Source of the DNA: Veillonellales bacterium
Lineage (GTDB): Bacteria; Bacillota; Negativicutes; JAAYSF01
Direction of reading: 5' to 3'
Length of the DNA stretch: 34,051 bases
Assembly: GCA_039680175.1 (NCBI GenBank)
Contig: JBDKTO010000024.1
Coordinates: forward strand, 1-34,051
Of the stretch, positions 6,759 through 21,248 are shown piece after piece. The position numbers and the translations under genes are program-made. Positions within the stretch are counted from its first letter, which is position 1. Each line of letters starts with the position of its first letter. The notes beneath the pieces are model-generated. The model was not told the DNA's origin. It worked only from the letters and a program-made list of their open reading frames with translations, and searched no databases.

Positions 6759-8276
6759 ATGAAAAAAAGTTTCGAACCCAGTCTACAATCTATCCAGCCA
6801 CCTGCCCTGCCAGTCAATACCCTCTCCTTTTCCGCCGGGGCTGCCGCTATGGAAAACATCGCCCTGCCGGATCTGATTCCCCTAAAAGAACTGCAGCACC
6901 TGCAGGATGTTTACGCCGAAACTGCAGGAATCGCTTCCATCATCACCGCTGTGAACGGCCAGCCCATCACCCGTCCCAGCAATTTTTCCAAGGTCTGTAC
7001 TATGGTCAGGAGCACCGAAATCGGCGCCCGGAACTGCATGCACTCGGGTAAAATATTAGGCGCTAAAGCCCGCAGTCTGCAGAAACCAACTTATCATCAA
7101 TGCCTGAGCTGCGGTTTCATCGATGCCAGCGCCCCCATTACTGTCGCCGGTCATCATCTTGCCAACTGGATTATCGGTCAAATTAACCCGGCCAAGGTAA
7201 ATAAGCAGCAAATCCGGGAATATGCGGTAAAACTCAGTCTTAACCCGGACACTTTGGCCGCAGCATTGGAAGAAATGTCCAGCATGCCGCTGGAGCAATT
7301 CGAAAAAAACTTACAGCTGCTTTGGCTGCTGGCCAAAAAGCTATCCACATTGGCCTTTAATAATTGGCTGCTATCCCGAGATAATATAATGCTTTCTCAG
7401 GCAGAAAAAGAAATTATGAAACTAAACCAAAATTTGGAGACCAGGGTGCGGGAAGCGGAAGCCGCCAATGCCGAACTGGAAAAAACCTTGGCTAGGCTGC
7501 AGGAAACCCAAACCCAGCTGATCCAGCATGAAAGGCTGGCGTCTCTGGGCGGGCTGGTAGCCGGTATCGCCCATGAGATCAATACGCCGGTGGGGACCGG
7601 CGTTACGGCTGCTTCCTATTTGGAGCAGGAAACCCGGGCGACAGCAAAACTGTTCGACAGCGGCAAACTAAAAAAATCAGATTTGGCAAACTATCTGGCT
7701 AAATCCATGGATGCCGCTCAGATTCTGCTGCTGAATCTAAGACGCGCCTCCGAGCTCATTCTAAGCTTTAAACGGGTGGCCGTCGATCAGTCCAGTGCCT
7801 CCCGCCAGCTTTTTAATATTAAAGACTGCATTGACGCAGTGATTTTAAGTTTGCGGCCCAATCTTAAAAAAGTGAGCCATCGGATTATCGTCAATTGCAG
7901 TGATCCTCTCTATGTCGACAGCTATCCCGGTGCCTTCTCCCAAATTTTTACCAATCTGATTATGAATTCTCTGATTCATGCCTTTCCCCAAAAACAGCAA
8001 GGCACAATCACTATTGATATTATGCTGCAGAAGAATGAATTGTGCCTGCAATACGCTGATGACGGTCAGGGCATCCCGCAGCAGCATCAAGAAAAAATAT
8101 TCGAGCCCTTTTTCACCACCCGCCGGGGCCAGGGTGGTACAGGCCTGGGACTGCATATTATCTATAATATTGTGACCCAGCAGTTAAAAGGTGAGATCCA
8201 CTGTCAAAGTGGTGTCAACCAAGGAACCTGCTTCCGTATTACATTACCGATAGAAAACGGGGGTACTCTGCAATGA
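6759..8276 (+). CDS. Cytoplasmic sensor histidine kinase with PocR ligand-binding domain
   Basis: 505 residues. GGAGG at 6744-6748 sits 10 nt before ATG 6759. Residues 38-200 form a PocR-type sensory domain: KVCTMVRSTEIGARNC, then YHQCLSCGFIDASAPI and HLANWIIGQ, with Cys at 80, 93, 115 and 118. A coiled coil (211-256) leads to the dimerisation/phosphoacceptor helix ERLASLGGLVAGIAHEINTP with His272. The ATPase domain shows N399/N403 (NLIMNSLIHAF), DDGQGIP (434-440), FEPFFTT (448-454) and GGTGLGLHII (459-468). There is no membrane segment. PocR domains are known from propanediol-type regulators and are thought to bind small hydrocarbon derivatives. The stop codon overlaps the next start (ATGA), so the pair is one two-component system. 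Confidence 0.92.
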   Translation: MKKSFEPSLQSIQPPALPVNTLSFSAGAAAMENIALPDLIPLKELQHLQDVYAETAGIASIITAVNGQPITRPSNFSKVCTMVRSTEIGARNCMHSGKILGAKARSLQKPTYHQCLSCGFIDASAPITVAGHHLANWIIGQINPAKVNKQQIREYAVKLSLNPDTLAAALEEMSSMPLEQFEKNLQLLWLLAKKLSTLAFNNWLLSRDNIMLSQAEKEIMKLNQNLETRVREAEAANAELEKTLARLQETQTQLIQHERLASLGGLVAGIAHEINTPVGTGVTAASYLEQETRATAKLFDSGKLKKSDLANYLAKSMDAAQILLLNLRRASELILSFKRVAVDQSSASRQLFNIKDCIDAVILSLRPNLKKVSHRIIVNCSDPLYVDSYPGAFSQIFTNLIMNSLIHAFPQKQQGTITIDIMLQKNELCLQYADDGQGIPQQHQEKIFEPFFTTRRGQGGTGLGLHIIYNIVTQQLKGEIHCQSGVNQGTCFRITLPIENGGTLQ

Positions 8277-9856
8277 GCTGTAAAAAAAGCTCCGGCAAAC
8301 TGGTTGAACCGGAAGACAATACCATTCTTTGGGCAGAAGAATCTTCCGGCGAAGAAGAAGAAATAGAATCAGCCGGCAAAGAAAAATGGAAAATCATGAT
8401 TATCGACGACGATGAAACAGTTCACAGTGTGACAAAACTGGCACTGCAAAATTTTTCTTTTGAGAACAGGGGGCTGGAATTTATCAGCGGTTATTCCGGC
8501 TTCCAGGCTAAAGCCTTAATGAAGAAGCACCCGGATACCGCCATTTTACTGCTGGATGTGGTGATGGAAAATGATGATGCCGGCTTAGCCGTAGTCCGCT
8601 GCATCCGCAATGAGCTGAAAAATCCTTTTGTGCGGATCATTTTGCGAACCGGCCAGCCCGGTCAGGCCCCGGAAGAACAGGTGGTCATGAAATATGATAT
8701 CAACGATTACAAAGAGAAAACGGAATTAACCGCCCGCAAATTATTCACTACCGTAGTCGCGGCCCTCAGAACGTATCGTGACCTGATTACCATTGACGCC
8801 AACCGGGAAGGTCTGAAAAAAATCATCGAAGCTTCGGCTTCCATGTTTAAAATCCAGTCCCTGAGTAAATTTGTCTCCGGCGTATTGCTGCAATTAATTT
8901 CTTTACTGGGACTGCATAAAAATTCCCTCTATTGCAATACCTCCGGACTGGCAGCCACAAAAAACGACGGCCAGTTTATCATTTTGGCAGCTACCGGCGA
9001 TTTCGAGATTTATCTGCAAAAAAACATTACGACGGTACTGCCTTCCGCCATCAGGGAAGAACTCACCCAGGTAATGAGTTCCAAACAGAGCATGTTCTTC
9101 GGCAACCGGTATATCGGCTACCATCACAGCCATGCCGACTCGGAAAACATTATCTATTTAGAAGGATTCGAAGCTCTGGATCCTCTTTCCCAGGATTTAA
9201 TTACCGTTTTCTTTAATAATGTGTCCACCGCCTTTGATAACCTGTATCTGAATAATGAACTGGCCAACAACCAAACCGAACTTTTTTTTACCCTGGGAGA
9301 AATGGCGGAAACCCGTTCCCGGGAAACGGGCTTTCATATCAAACGGGTAGCCCAGTATTGCAGGCTCTTTGCCGAAAAATACGGGCTGAGTGAAGAAGAA
9401 ACAAACATGCTGCTGCTGGCCTCTTCCATGCATGACATTGGCAAGCTGGCCATTGAGGATCATATCTTAAAAAAGCCCGGCCGGCTGACAGACGAAGAAT
9501 ACGCCAAAATGAAAGAACATGCGCTGGCCGGTTATCAAATTTTGACATCCTCCAGCCGTCCTTTGCTGCAAACCGCTGCCTTAATCGCCTTGCAGCATCA
9601 TGAAAAATACGACGGCAGCGGCTATCCCCAAGGGCTTCGCGGCGATGCCATCCATATTTACGGTCGCATTACCGCTATCGCCGATGTTTTCGACGCCTTA
9701 AGCAGCGACCGGGTGTATCGCTCCGCCTGGGATTTAGAGCAAGTATATGATTACATTCGCTCCCAAAGCGGCAAACACTTCGATCCCCGGCTGGTGGCAA
9801 TATTTTTTCAAAACCGGGAGGAATTTCTTACTATCCGGGATCATTCCCCGGAGTAA
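8273..9856 (+). CDS. Response regulator with DUF3369-like region and HD-GYP c-di-GMP phosphodiesterase domain
   Basis: 527 residues, overlapping the kinase stop by 4 nt. After an acidic N-terminal extension (1-38), the receiver has Asp45/Asp46 (IIDDDE), phosphoacceptor Asp95 (LLLDVVM), Thr126 and the NDYKEKTEL lysine region at 144-152. Residues 170-340 look like the DUF3369 family (RDLITIDANREGLKKIIEAS, then SLSKFVSGVLLQL), a GAF-like module usual between receiver and HD-GYP. The HD-GYP domain has HDIGK (387-391), HHEKYDGSGYP (442-452) and IADVFDALSSDRVYR (469-483). All signature residues are present, so it should hydrolyse cyclic di-GMP. The DUF3369 label is from pattern recall; the receiver and HD-GYP calls are secure. 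Confidence 0.93.
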   Translation: MSCKKSSGKLVEPEDNTILWAEESSGEEEEIESAGKEKWKIMIIDDDETVHSVTKLALQNFSFENRGLEFISGYSGFQAKALMKKHPDTAILLLDVVMENDDAGLAVVRCIRNELKNPFVRIILRTGQPGQAPEEQVVMKYDINDYKEKTELTARKLFTTVVAALRTYRDLITIDANREGLKKIIEASASMFKIQSLSKFVSGVLLQLISLLGLHKNSLYCNTSGLAATKNDGQFIILAATGDFEIYLQKNITTVLPSAIREELTQVMSSKQSMFFGNRYIGYHHSHADSENIIYLEGFEALDPLSQDLITVFFNNVSTAFDNLYLNNELANNQTELFFTLGEMAETRSRETGFHIKRVAQYCRLFAEKYGLSEEETNMLLLASSMHDIGKLAIEDHILKKPGRLTDEEYAKMKEHALAGYQILTSSSRPLLQTAALIALQHHEKYDGSGYPQGLRGDAIHIYGRITAIADVFDALSSDRVYRSAWDLEQVYDYIRSQSGKHFDPRLVAIFFQNREEFLTIRDHSPE

Positions 9857-16133: not shown

Positions 16134-17021
16134 CTACAATTTACCAGCCGCTAAAATCAAGTTCAATTTACCGAAGGACAGGCGAATGGAAATCCGGTAC
16201 CCCTTTCGCAAAGAAAGCTTCTCTTCCCGTAAAATCTGCTGTGGCTGCAAATCCAAATCGACTCCTTGGTCAGAAGCATTAACACAAAAAATTCCATTGA
16301 TCACATTTAAAAATTCGGCGACACTATCAAGCGCCAAATCATCCAGCACCATAAGCTCCTCACCGCTATAGCGGCGCGCTATTCCCAGCAGGGTAGCTTC
16401 ATCTGCCGTCAACCCGGTAAAGAGTTCCATCTCACCGTAAACCGCCTGGGATACCAGCCGATCAAGAACCACGCTGTCCAGCGCATCGGCATTCATCAGC
16501 AAGGGATCCTCATTTAAAAAGCGTATGATATTACGCAGCAGCAGTGCCACATATTTATGATAAACTTCCCCCATGGCCCCGGCGAAAAAAAAGTCCAGCA
16601 ACGCCTGGCTGATATCATTATAATCTGACACTTGCAGCGATTGCCACTGTTGAGCGGCAAGCCCGCTCTGTTCCTTGAATTTTATCAGCACTTGCTCCAG
16701 CTCACTTAAGTTAAGGTACCCTAAATCAACAATAGCCTGACTCAATGTCAGCTGCCGGCGCTGCTGAACTTCCAGCAATTCTTCCATCTGCTTCAAGGTT
16801 AAATAGCCCTGTTCAATCGCCAGCTCGCCAAACCGTTTATCCTTTGTTCGCTGCAAATCATGCACTTGTTCCACCTGACTGGCCGTCATAATTCCTGCAT
16901 TCACAGCCAGCACACCCAGCTTCAACCGCACGGCCCGTTCATGCGTCAGCACTTCCGTCAGTTGTTCTGCCGTTAAAATCCCCTGGTTAAACAAATATTG
17001 ACCGAAATATTGATTAAACAT
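16134..17021 (-). CDS. Protein with four MshEN-like motifs and a CheX-like C-terminal domain
   Basis: 295 residues, no membrane segment. The N-terminal 115 residues hold four copies of a 24-residue motif at 5-28, 34-57, 63-86 and 92-115, joined by 5-residue linkers, giving an exact 29-residue period. The pattern fits xLGxxLxxxGxxxxxxLxxxLxxQ of MshEN c-di-GMP-binding domains; copies 2 and 3 are best, starting KLG and RFG and ending LQ and VQ. Copy 4 has lost the first glycine. The C-terminal part (about 130-295) resembles CheX/CheC-type phosphatase domains, with Glu236 and Asn239 (AEFLNVING) in the expected ExxN arrangement. It follows cheY by 48 bp, with GGAGG 6 nt before ATG 17021. A c-di-GMP-controlled CheY phosphatase or output partner is inferred. 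Confidence 0.72.
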   Translation of the reverse strand: MFNQYFGQYLFNQGILTAEQLTEVLTHERAVRLKLGVLAVNAGIMTASQVEQVHDLQRTKDKRFGELAIEQGYLTLKQMEELLEVQQRRQLTLSQAIVDLGYLNLSELEQVLIKFKEQSGLAAQQWQSLQVSDYNDISQALLDFFFAGAMGEVYHKYVALLLRNIIRFLNEDPLLMNADALDSVVLDRLVSQAVYGEMELFTGLTADEATLLGIARRYSGEELMVLDDLALDSVAEFLNVINGIFCVNASDQGVDLDLQPQQILREEKLSLRKGYRISIRLSFGKLNLILAAGKL

Positions 17022-17069
17022 GTTCGACCTCCACCCTAATGTTAACTTACCATTTACCAGCAGTCCGGT

Positions 17070-17438
17070 TTATTGATCCAGTGATGCAATAACTTTCGCA
17101 ATTTGTTCTGACTTATAAGGCTTTTGGATGAAGTCGTATGCCCCATTTTTTAAGGCTTGGATCAATTTAGCGGATGTACCGGTAGAAGACAGCATGACCA
17201 CCTTGGCAGCAGCATCATATTCCCTGATATTCTTTAAGGCCTCCAAGCCATCTGCTTCCGGCATAATAATATCCATAAAGACAATTTTCGGCCGGCACTG
17301 TTTATAAACATTTACCGCCTCAATCCCATTGGCCGCCTCAAAAACCTCACAGTCCATACCCACTAACATGTCTTTTAGTTTTTTTCGTACCAACATGGAA
17401 TCATCACAAATCAATACTGTATTTTTTTTAGCTTCCAT
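17070..17438 (-). CDS. CheY-like single-domain response regulator
   Basis: 122 residues, only a receiver. Acidic pocket Asp12/Asp13 (LICDDS), phosphoacceptor Asp56 (FMDIIMPEADG), Ser84-Thr86 (MLSSTG) and Lys106 (FIQKPY) are all present. The SSTG and the FIQKP form is typical of CheY proteins paired with CheX/CheC in Firmicutes and spirochaetes. It is first in a two-gene operon with the MshEN/CheX-like protein, divergent from an HD-GYP gene. AAGGAG lies about 13 nt before ATG 17438. Whether it binds the flagellar motor or another target cannot be seen. Confidence 0.92.
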   Translation of the reverse strand: MEAKKNTVLICDDSMLVRKKLKDMLVGMDCEVFEAANGIEAVNVYKQCRPKIVFMDIIMPEADGLEALKNIREYDAAAKVVMLSSTGTSAKLIQALKNGAYDFIQKPYKSEQIAKVIASLDQ

Positions 17439-17495
17439 TTAATTCCGCCGTCTCCTTCCAAACCCTTCGGTCCATTTTTTCGCTAAATTACATTC

Positions 17496-17537
17496 TTTGA
17501 CAAGTTCGACACATTATTCTAAAATCCTCTTGTCAAA
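17496..17537. promoter_or_regulatory. Inverted repeat in the cheY / HD-GYP divergent intergenic region
   Basis: TTTGACAAG (17496-17504) and CTTGTCAAA (17529-17537) are exact inverted copies 24 nt apart. Each contains TTGACA facing inward, so they may be face-to-face -35 elements or an operator controlling both divergent genes. No well-spaced -10 was found for either arm; the HD-GYP promoter proposed here lies just downstream. Confidence 0.4.
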
Positions 17538-17559
17538 AAATCCAAAAATGTAAAGGAAA

Positions 17560-17588
17560 TTAACAAATAAGCGCGAATTTTATATAAT
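17560..17588 (+). promoter_or_regulatory. Sigma-A promoter of the HD-GYP gene
   Basis: TTAACA (17560-17565), a 17-nt spacer, then TATAAT (17583-17588). The gene starts at 17627 with CGGAGG upstream, giving a leader of about 30 nt. Confidence 0.75.
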
Positions 17589-17626
17589 GAAGTTGATATT
17601 CCGATAACGACTTTCCGGAGGATACC

Positions 17627-18748
17627 ATGCAGCGAATTTCCATATCTCATCTAAAACCCGGCATGACGCTGAGCCGCAATATATTCAGTGCCGACGGTCT
17701 GCTACTGCTCAATGTCGGCATCAAACTCACCCGGAACTATATTAGCCGTCTAAAGAAGCTGGGCATTGCCTCGGTGTATGTCGACAATCCCTTACTGACT
17801 GATATCGAAGCACCCGAAATCATTCAGGAAGAAACAAGGGTAAAGGCCATCGCCACAGTAAAGCAATCCTTTAGCAAACTCCAAACCGTATGTCGAATTG
17901 ATATTGGCGAACTCCAGCAAGTGGCTAACCGGATTGTGGATGAAGCCATTCAAAACCGCCATACCATGGTGCACCTGACCGATATTCGCACTCATGACGA
18001 TTATACCTTCGGTCATTCAGTGAATGTCTGTGTACTGGCAGTTGTTACCGGCCTGCACCTTGGTTATCATACCGATCAGCTCCGAACCCTGGCTCTCGGC
18101 GCCATGCTCCATGATGTTGGAAAATTGTCCGTACCGTTGGAAATCTTAAATAAACCGGGCCGGTTAACCGAGGACGAAATGTCAATCATGAAACAGCATT
18201 CCGGCTATGGCTTTTCCATCTTGCAGCAGCAAACTGATTCGATTCCGCTACTGGCTGCCCATATCGCTTTTCAACACCATGAAAAATTTAACGGCACCGG
18301 TTATCCCCGCTGTCTGCAAGGTGACGATATTCATGAATTTGCCCGTATTGTGGCTATTGCCGACGTATATGACGCCCTCACTGCCGATCGTCCTTATCGT
18401 AAATGCCTGCCCCCTCACCAAGCGTATGAATGGATTATGGTTTTAACCGGTCAGCATTTCGACCCTTACATCTTGTCCGTCTTTCTCAGTCATATCGCCG
18501 CTTATCCCGTTGGCACTTTTGTCCGATTAACCAGTGGTGAAATCGGCATCGTAACTAAAGTTTTACCTAAACTTTCCACAAGGCCCCAGCTCCGCATACT
18601 CACTGATTCATCCGGTCAATTTTTGTCCCAGCCGGCAGAACTGAATATGCTGGAGCATTTAACTTTATTTATCGACAAAGTGCTGACCGATAAGGAAGTC
18701 TATGCTTTGCAATCCCAAATTTCCGGAGACATAGCTCATAGCTCATAA
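17627..18748 (+). CDS. HD-GYP domain protein (probable cyclic di-GMP phosphodiesterase)
   Basis: 373 residues. The N-terminal region (ISISHLKPGMTLSRNIFSAD, 4-23, then LTRNYISRLKKLGIASVYVD) is the short domain often found before HD-GYP in Firmicutes. The catalytic domain has H130 (FGHSVNVC), HDVGK (162-166), H191, HHEKFNGTGYP (217-227) and IADVYDALTADRPYR (244-258). Asn replaces the usual Asp in HHExxDGxGYP, a substitution seen in other Firmicute members. Residues 294-345 form a beta-rich, KOW-like C-terminal module (VGTFVRLTSGEIGIVTKVLP). The final codons IAHSS and stop are encoded by the heptamer repeat at 18730-18747. The gene is divergent from the cheY/CheX-like pair. Confidence 0.92.
   Translation: MQRISISHLKPGMTLSRNIFSADGLLLLNVGIKLTRNYISRLKKLGIASVYVDNPLLTDIEAPEIIQEETRVKAIATVKQSFSKLQTVCRIDIGELQQVANRIVDEAIQNRHTMVHLTDIRTHDDYTFGHSVNVCVLAVVTGLHLGYHTDQLRTLALGAMLHDVGKLSVPLEILNKPGRLTEDEMSIMKQHSGYGFSILQQQTDSIPLLAAHIAFQHHEKFNGTGYPRCLQGDDIHEFARIVAIADVYDALTADRPYRKCLPPHQAYEWIMVLTGQHFDPYILSVFLSHIAAYPVGTFVRLTSGEIGIVTKVLPKLSTRPQLRILTDSSGQFLSQPAELNMLEHLTLFIDKVLTDKEVYALQSQISGDIAHSS
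18730..18747. repeat. Second copy of the heptamer repeat, 2.6 units, overlapping a gene's 3' end
   Basis: CATAGCT occurs twice followed by CATA (18730-18747), the same unit and orientation as the array at 2095-2188. It encodes the last residues and the stop codon (TAA at 18746-18748) of the HD-GYP gene and runs straight into the A-rich arm of a terminator, just as the first array does. Confidence 0.9.
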
Positions 18749-20992: not shown

Positions 20993-21021
20993 AATCATAA
21001 ATCATCTCAATACTTTGGCAA

Positions 21022-21248
21022 TGACAGGGATAGTATATGGTTACTTCTCTTGGCAGAGAGCCGGATAGGGTGAAAACCGGCAAGAGAACCGCTATAGAAT
21101 GCCCCCCTGGAGCTGCAACGCCGAAAGCCTTAACCCGGCTGTAGGTGCTGCCGCCACTCCGGCGTTAGCGGGGAAAAGCGAGCCAATTGGCTAATTTGGG
21201 TGGTACCGCGGGAATCAATCCCGTCCTTTTACAGGACGGGATTTTTTT
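21022..21248 (+). promoter_or_regulatory. T-box riboswitch upstream of the lrp-aminotransferase operon
   Basis: Diagnostic parts are all present: stem I with the AGTA (21031-21035 region) and GAA strands of the specifier loop, an AGAGAG bulge, the distal GGTGAAAACC loop near 21069-21078, and the T-box sequence TTTGGGTGGTACCGCG at 21195-21210. The terminator stem is CCCGTCC/GGACGGG (21220-21226 / 21234-21240) followed by T7. Uncharged tRNA binding would stabilise the antiterminator and permit expression. The triplet directly after GAA reads UGC (Cys), but the UGGU bulge pairs with a tRNA ending in A73, unlike typical tRNA-Cys; AUG (Met) or GCC (Ala) in shifted register are alternatives. Confidence 0.95.

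Follow-up and report, generated by a model that had tools for sequence, protein, structure and literature searches.

An MshEN-repeat/CheX fusion and its CheY partner in Bacillota: a candidate c-di-GMP-gated phosphatase module

Genes of the locus and their conserved pairing

Within the 34,051 nucleotides analysed from a Veillonellales bacterium (contig JBDKTO010000024.1, hereafter the window), a gene for a stand-alone CheY and one for a fusion of MshEN-type repeats with a CheX domain lie in one operon, from which an HD-GYP phosphodiesterase gene diverges (Table 1). The original prediction had placed all three ORFs and the 188-bp region shared by the divergent transcription units correctly, and the assignments of the CheY and HD-GYP genes are, judged from their domain matches and motifs, ordinary and secure. 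Both strands of the shared region carry sigma-70-like sites (17497-17525 and 17560-17588 on the plus strand, 17503-17474 on the minus strand), all of which are consensus matches only. Neither the window nor 14 related loci yielded an Rfam element, such as a c-di-GMP riboswitch, beside the module. Elsewhere in the window, a T-box leader (21012-21231, plus strand, 114.5 bits) lies immediately 5' of genes for an Lrp/AsnC-type regulator and an aminotransferase, and a second c-di-GMP-type phosphodiesterase is encoded at 6759-9856 (plus strand), where a sensor histidine kinase gene overlaps that of a REC-DUF3369-HD-GYP response regulator.

Table 1. Features of the module and its surroundings (positions refer to the window)
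Feature	Position	Strand	Details
MshEN-repeat/CheX fusion gene	16134..17021	-	295-aa ORF
CheX domain	16137..16586	-	about residues 146-295
Catalytic ExxN motif, E236 to N239	16305..16316	-	conservation in relatives
Four 24-residue MshEN-type motifs	16677..17009	-	residues 5-28, 34-57, 63-86, 92-115; period 29
Central motif pair 2+3, predicted c-di-GMP site	16764..16922	-	residues 34-86
Stand-alone CheY gene	17070..17438	-	122 aa; 48 bp upstream of fusion gene; Response_reg E=5.6e-27
Divergent promoter region	17439..17626		188 bp; between CheY gene and HD-GYP gene
HD-GYP phosphodiesterase gene	17627..18748	+	373 aa; motifs HDVGK, HHEKFNGTGYP; HD_5 E=1e-30

Relatives of the fusion protein occur as strong matches in 25 of 59 other genomes of the class (Negativicutes) and also in Clostridia and Bacilli. 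CheY is the direct neighbour of the fusion gene in 27 of 29 class loci (the window included), in 78 of 80 GTDB loci from Negativicutes, Clostridia and Bacilli and for 17 of the 18 matches in a phylum sample, the three locus sets overlapping one another; in some of the phylum-sample loci the order is reversed and CheY lies downstream. Since adjacency persists while gene order changes, the two genes seem to form a functional pair; the conserved unit is MshEN-CheX plus CheY. A shared operon had been proposed for the window, and the link is in fact far stronger than claimed, adjacency being near-universal in Bacillota. Genomes with two modules have two different CheYs, and each of these most resembles the CheYs that accompany its counterpart module in other genomes. 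Among 93 aligned partner CheYs, 92-93 retain the active-site residues (acidic pair D12 and D13, phospho-Asp D56, Ser/Thr switch S84 and K106).

Clustering of 866 ORFs around the relatives' loci revealed no further general neighbour beyond cheY. Lineage-specific genes do lie directly upstream, namely MCP plus STAS (5 loci), a HAMP-Hpt-HATPase kinase (6 loci) and, in the Pelosinus group, HD-GYP, their domains being assigned by a Pfam run on one representative per group; that signalling genes take this position in some lineages counts for reading the fusion protein and CheY as a signalling pair.

MshEN-type repeats and a predicted c-di-GMP site

Four 24-residue motifs at a strict 29-residue period had been read in the fusion protein, and this repeat structure is confirmed: a lag of 29 is the self-similarity peak of residues 1-116 (score 104; runner-up lag 58 with 64), a value reached in 0 of 5000 shuffles, and NCBIfam NF053729, a 53-residue c-di-GMP motif related to MshE, matches the whole protein with E=1.1e-15 and 57.2 bits at a cut-off of 38 bits. 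By motif pair, the score is 38.0 bits for 1+2, 35.0 for 2+3 and 30.4 for 3+4, the last two each falling under the cut-off when taken alone. In contrast, the Pfam MshEN model PF05157 had no match to the fusion protein in the profile search, so that the proposed similarity to MshEN is upheld by one profile and left without an echo in the other. In the MshEN ATPase of the window genome, PF05157 takes in the residues immediately following the 53-residue motif, which is why we regard the second MshEN subdomain as undetected in the fusion protein; residues 120-145 of the latter are short and helical in the model. On profile evidence, then, this is a protein with repeats of the ligand-binding type and without a detectable second MshEN subdomain.

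The full-length protein was modelled from an alignment of 19 relatives (mean pLDDT 85.6; with a pTM of 0.60 the inter-domain arrangement is not well fixed) and residues 1-124 separately from 66 relatives (pLDDT 88.8, pTM 0.79), each as a single chain, and structures were compared by Foldseek and VIA-align. Eight helices, or four helical hairpins, are predicted for the repeat region. Residues 32-89, the central motif pair, superpose on c-di-GMP-bound MshE of Vibrio cholerae (5htl) with Z 11.8 and rmsd 1.4 Å over 58 residues at 33% identity and, again as a predicted model, on GSPII-B of Thermus PilF with Z 11.0, and the model of residues 1-124 reproduces both matches; helical bundles may attain Z-scores like these merely from their common arrangement, and we credit the match beyond such generic likeness because the profile of relatives aligns residues 30-100 with MshE 5-76 in equal motif register. 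Structural resemblance to MshEN, as the original prediction would have it, is thus seen in the predicted central pair. A second bundle made of motifs 1 and 4 is hinted at by a match to PilF GSPII-A (Z 5.3, 63 residues across 1-124), though too faintly for us to propose one.

With MshE, whose MshEN domain is of the GspE/PilB N-terminal type, the fusion protein shares the 24-residue motif, the 5-residue spacer, the two-motif four-helix bundle and K/R, G and Q contacts in the same register, whereas it differs in its number of motifs (four, against two in MshE), in the H54 and F64 of its first guanine pocket, in having no second subdomain that could be detected and in being fused to CheX rather than to an ATPase. 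PilF, albeit similar in its GSPII-B bundle, is a pilus ATPase whose GSPII domain has both subdomains.

According to the text of Wang et al. 2016 (PMC5013675), the contacts to each guanine in MshE are an Arg, a Gln, the backbone at a Gly and hydrophobic residues, three in number and drawn from both motifs, and any single change among the conserved hydrophobic residues lowers affinity more than 10-fold. In place of the Arg, Lys or Leu is tolerated, and PilF GSPII-B can bind very tightly with a Lys as the first residue of motif I (PMC11731258). The equivalent positions of the fusion protein are K34, L35, G36, V50, H54 and Q57 in motif 2 and R63, F64, G65, M79, L83 and Q86 in motif 3. When mapped, these make a canonical second guanine site (R63, L35, M79, L83, G65, Q86); the first keeps K34, V50, G36 and Q57 and has H54 replacing L29 and F64 replacing L39 of MshE. 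V50 and M79 are conservative replacements, and K34, L35, G36, Q57, R63, G65, L83 and Q86 fit the R/K/L, L, G, L, L, Q contacts. Every one of the 96 full-length relatives has F64, and 84% have H54.

Both central motifs keep the pattern [KRL]-x-G...Q in 87 of the 96 full-length relatives, while none (0/96) has it in motif 1 or 4, and the ligand-contact Gly and Gln of motifs 2 and 3 are kept at 94-96%. Because the ligand residues are kept in motifs 2 and 3 and absent from 1 and 4, the best reading of these residues is a single predicted c-di-GMP site per chain, with a subfamily-specific first pocket. Most ligand-contact positions are hence kept in the two central repeats, with two Leu replaced; all four motifs of the original prediction are present, but they are not equivalent, motifs 1 and 4 being without such contacts.

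Several relatives, including Megamonas and other Selenomonadales loci, have lost the central Gly/Gln of the ligand site, or most repeats, and kept CheX and the CheY neighbour (L056, L057, L059, L173, L137-L140). An explanation by genomes without diguanylate cyclases is ruled out by 13-27 GGDEF matches in the genomes of these relatives where counted. That CheX and CheY are retained amid abundant GGDEF genes suggests that some loci can do without the proposed gating.

The CheX domain and the likely output of CheY

In the model, the CheX fold is unambiguous: the predicted domain matches T. maritima CheX (1squ) with Z 18.9 over 145 residues and the CheX of a CheX-CheY complex (3hzh) with Z 17.2, and Pfam CheX (PF13690) scores 27.2 bits, barely over its cut-off of 27. 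CheX-type enzymes insert an acidic residue and an Asn into CheY-P (PMC3035606), and by alignment E236 (in 100/100 relatives) and N239 (in 99/100) correspond to this pair. The anticipated CheX-like C-terminal domain with Glu236 and Asn239 accordingly agrees with the 1squ match, PF13690 and the residue positions alike, and the modelled fold is not one unrelated to CheX. The lone exception at N239 is a paralogue (L058:6492-7301, minus strand) with ExxS, degenerate repeats and no CheY neighbour, which has a decayed look and is probably inactive as a phosphatase. CheX of T. maritima and Borrelia (3hzh, with CheY) shares the fold and the ExxN catalytic pair but is stand-alone, whereas here CheX sits behind an MshEN-type sensor and comes with a dedicated CheY gene. 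Other CheX arrangements were seen in passing: the window genome has, off the window, a CheX-like domain match adjoining a GGDEF gene (G000:C98:5731-7300), and at another locus (L061:567-1881, plus strand) a REC-CheX fusion gene overlaps a gene for a stand-alone CheX, some 3 kb upstream of the module.

As for the wider setting, GGDEF genes are present in 25 of 25 class genomes with the module, and the window genome has 18 GGDEF matches, nine CheW-domain matches, FliM and further CheX/CheC-type domains. Across the class, the module occurs in 24 of 38 genomes with FliM versus 1 of 21 without (p=7e-6), an association that gives p=0.20 once collapsed to families; the single FliM-less genome among the 25 with the module is an 84% complete assembly. 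In the phylum sample, 17 of the 18 genomes that have the module also have FliM, as do 307 of the 380 that lack it (p=0.22); in one 99% complete genome, the module stands without any FliM match. Since the family-level and phylum-wide tests are not significant, the flagellar link is only suggestive, and the output of CheY is probably, yet not certainly, the flagellar switch.

Proposed gating, competing explanations and meaning

What the analysis shows is the architecture, the folds as predictions, the fixed pairing of the genes and the conservation seen at both active sites. The reading we prefer, at a probability of roughly 55%, is that c-di-GMP at motifs 2 and 3 alters dephosphorylation of the partner CheY-P by the CheX domain, which would make fusion protein and CheY a signalling pair. 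A kinase would phosphorylate the stand-alone CheY and the CheX domain would strip the phosphate, with E236 and N239 reaching into the active site of CheY; motifs 2 and 3 would form one MshEN four-helix bundle for one c-di-GMP per chain, flanked by motifs 1 and 4 as scaffold. Bound ligand would then change CheX activity or its access to CheY-P, the lifetime of which would be set by c-di-GMP. Ligand identity, gating, gating direction and the flagellar-switch output are all four what we infer, and as far as sequence goes, the departure of the H54/F64 pocket from MshE and the undetected second subdomain count against this reading, as do the relatives that have lost the site and the weakness of the flagellar link across the phylum.

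The altered first pocket (H54, F64) would also suit repeats that no longer bind a nucleotide and instead act as a protein-binding scaffold placing the CheX phosphatase at, for example, a pilus ATPase, the flagellar pole or a receptor array, as would the motifs 1 and 4, which are without ligand positions in all relatives yet conserved in sequence, and those relatives that still have CheX and CheY without a ligand site. A pure scaffold, however, has no need of the Gly/Gln contacts that are kept specifically in motifs 2 and 3, nor does it sit well with GGDEF genes in every class genome that has the module, and to our minds this scenario is unlikely. Alternatively, c-di-GMP might govern place or partner (localisation, oligomer state, CheY-P sequestration) rather than catalytic rate. 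Allosteric coupling does not follow from architecture and pairing by themselves and the loosely fixed domain arrangement leaves room for such a role, but a sensor fused directly to an enzyme usually means rate control and no localisation signal was noticed, and so we regard this option as rather doubtful. It strikes us as very improbable that the asymmetric pocket is the sign of a receptor subfamily adjusted to some other cyclic dinucleotide (e.g. 3',3'-cGAMP) or to another range of binding; if true, a CheY phosphatase spread across Bacillota would respond to a ligand that is not ordinary c-di-GMP.

The original prediction also drew in the divergent HD-GYP enzyme, which in a three-gene circuit would locally lower c-di-GMP for the fusion receptor. 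The upstream region common to both transcription units in the window speaks for such a circuit, as does an HD-GYP gene preceding cheY in the Pelosinus group. The latter, however, is a different gene, co-directional and restricted to this group, and that of the window was not found beside the module at 28 other class loci. With HD-GYP missing beside the module in nearly all other loci, and with 18 GGDEF matches in the genome and a second HD-GYP regulator in the window, we give very little credence to a local circuit. Since HD-GYP occurs in the window and, separately, in the Pelosinus group, the association arose at least twice, and this is mild support for a c-di-GMP theme, not for a conserved circuit of three genes. 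By its distribution, the divergent HD-GYP gene is a lineage-specific neighbour outside the conserved module, and the notion of a three-gene module is not supported.

Nor is MshEN-CheX new as a combination: Wang et al. 2016 (PMC5013675) mention the association, with the same domains as here, in one sentence citing a supplementary table and figure; the main text of that paper offers neither a partner CheY nor a distribution, an analysis of the pocket or a function for it. No characterised MshEN-CheX protein or functional study was found in a literature search with most subscription papers beyond its reach, and the near-obligate CheY partner, Bacillota-wide spread, central-pair site and altered first pocket appear to be undescribed so far.

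The pair is compact, with two genes for 417 aa in all, and can be tested directly with purified proteins; it is widespread in Bacillota, with culturable species of Cytobacillus, Ureibacillus, Clostridium, Sporomusa and Pelosinus among its carriers. The routes by which c-di-GMP is known to reach motility run mostly via the motor, transcription or receptors. A CheY-P phosphatase with a c-di-GMP-reading sensor half would, on our preferred reading, act on the phosphoryl signal itself, which would suggest a direct link between the 'settle down' messenger c-di-GMP and motility-type signalling.
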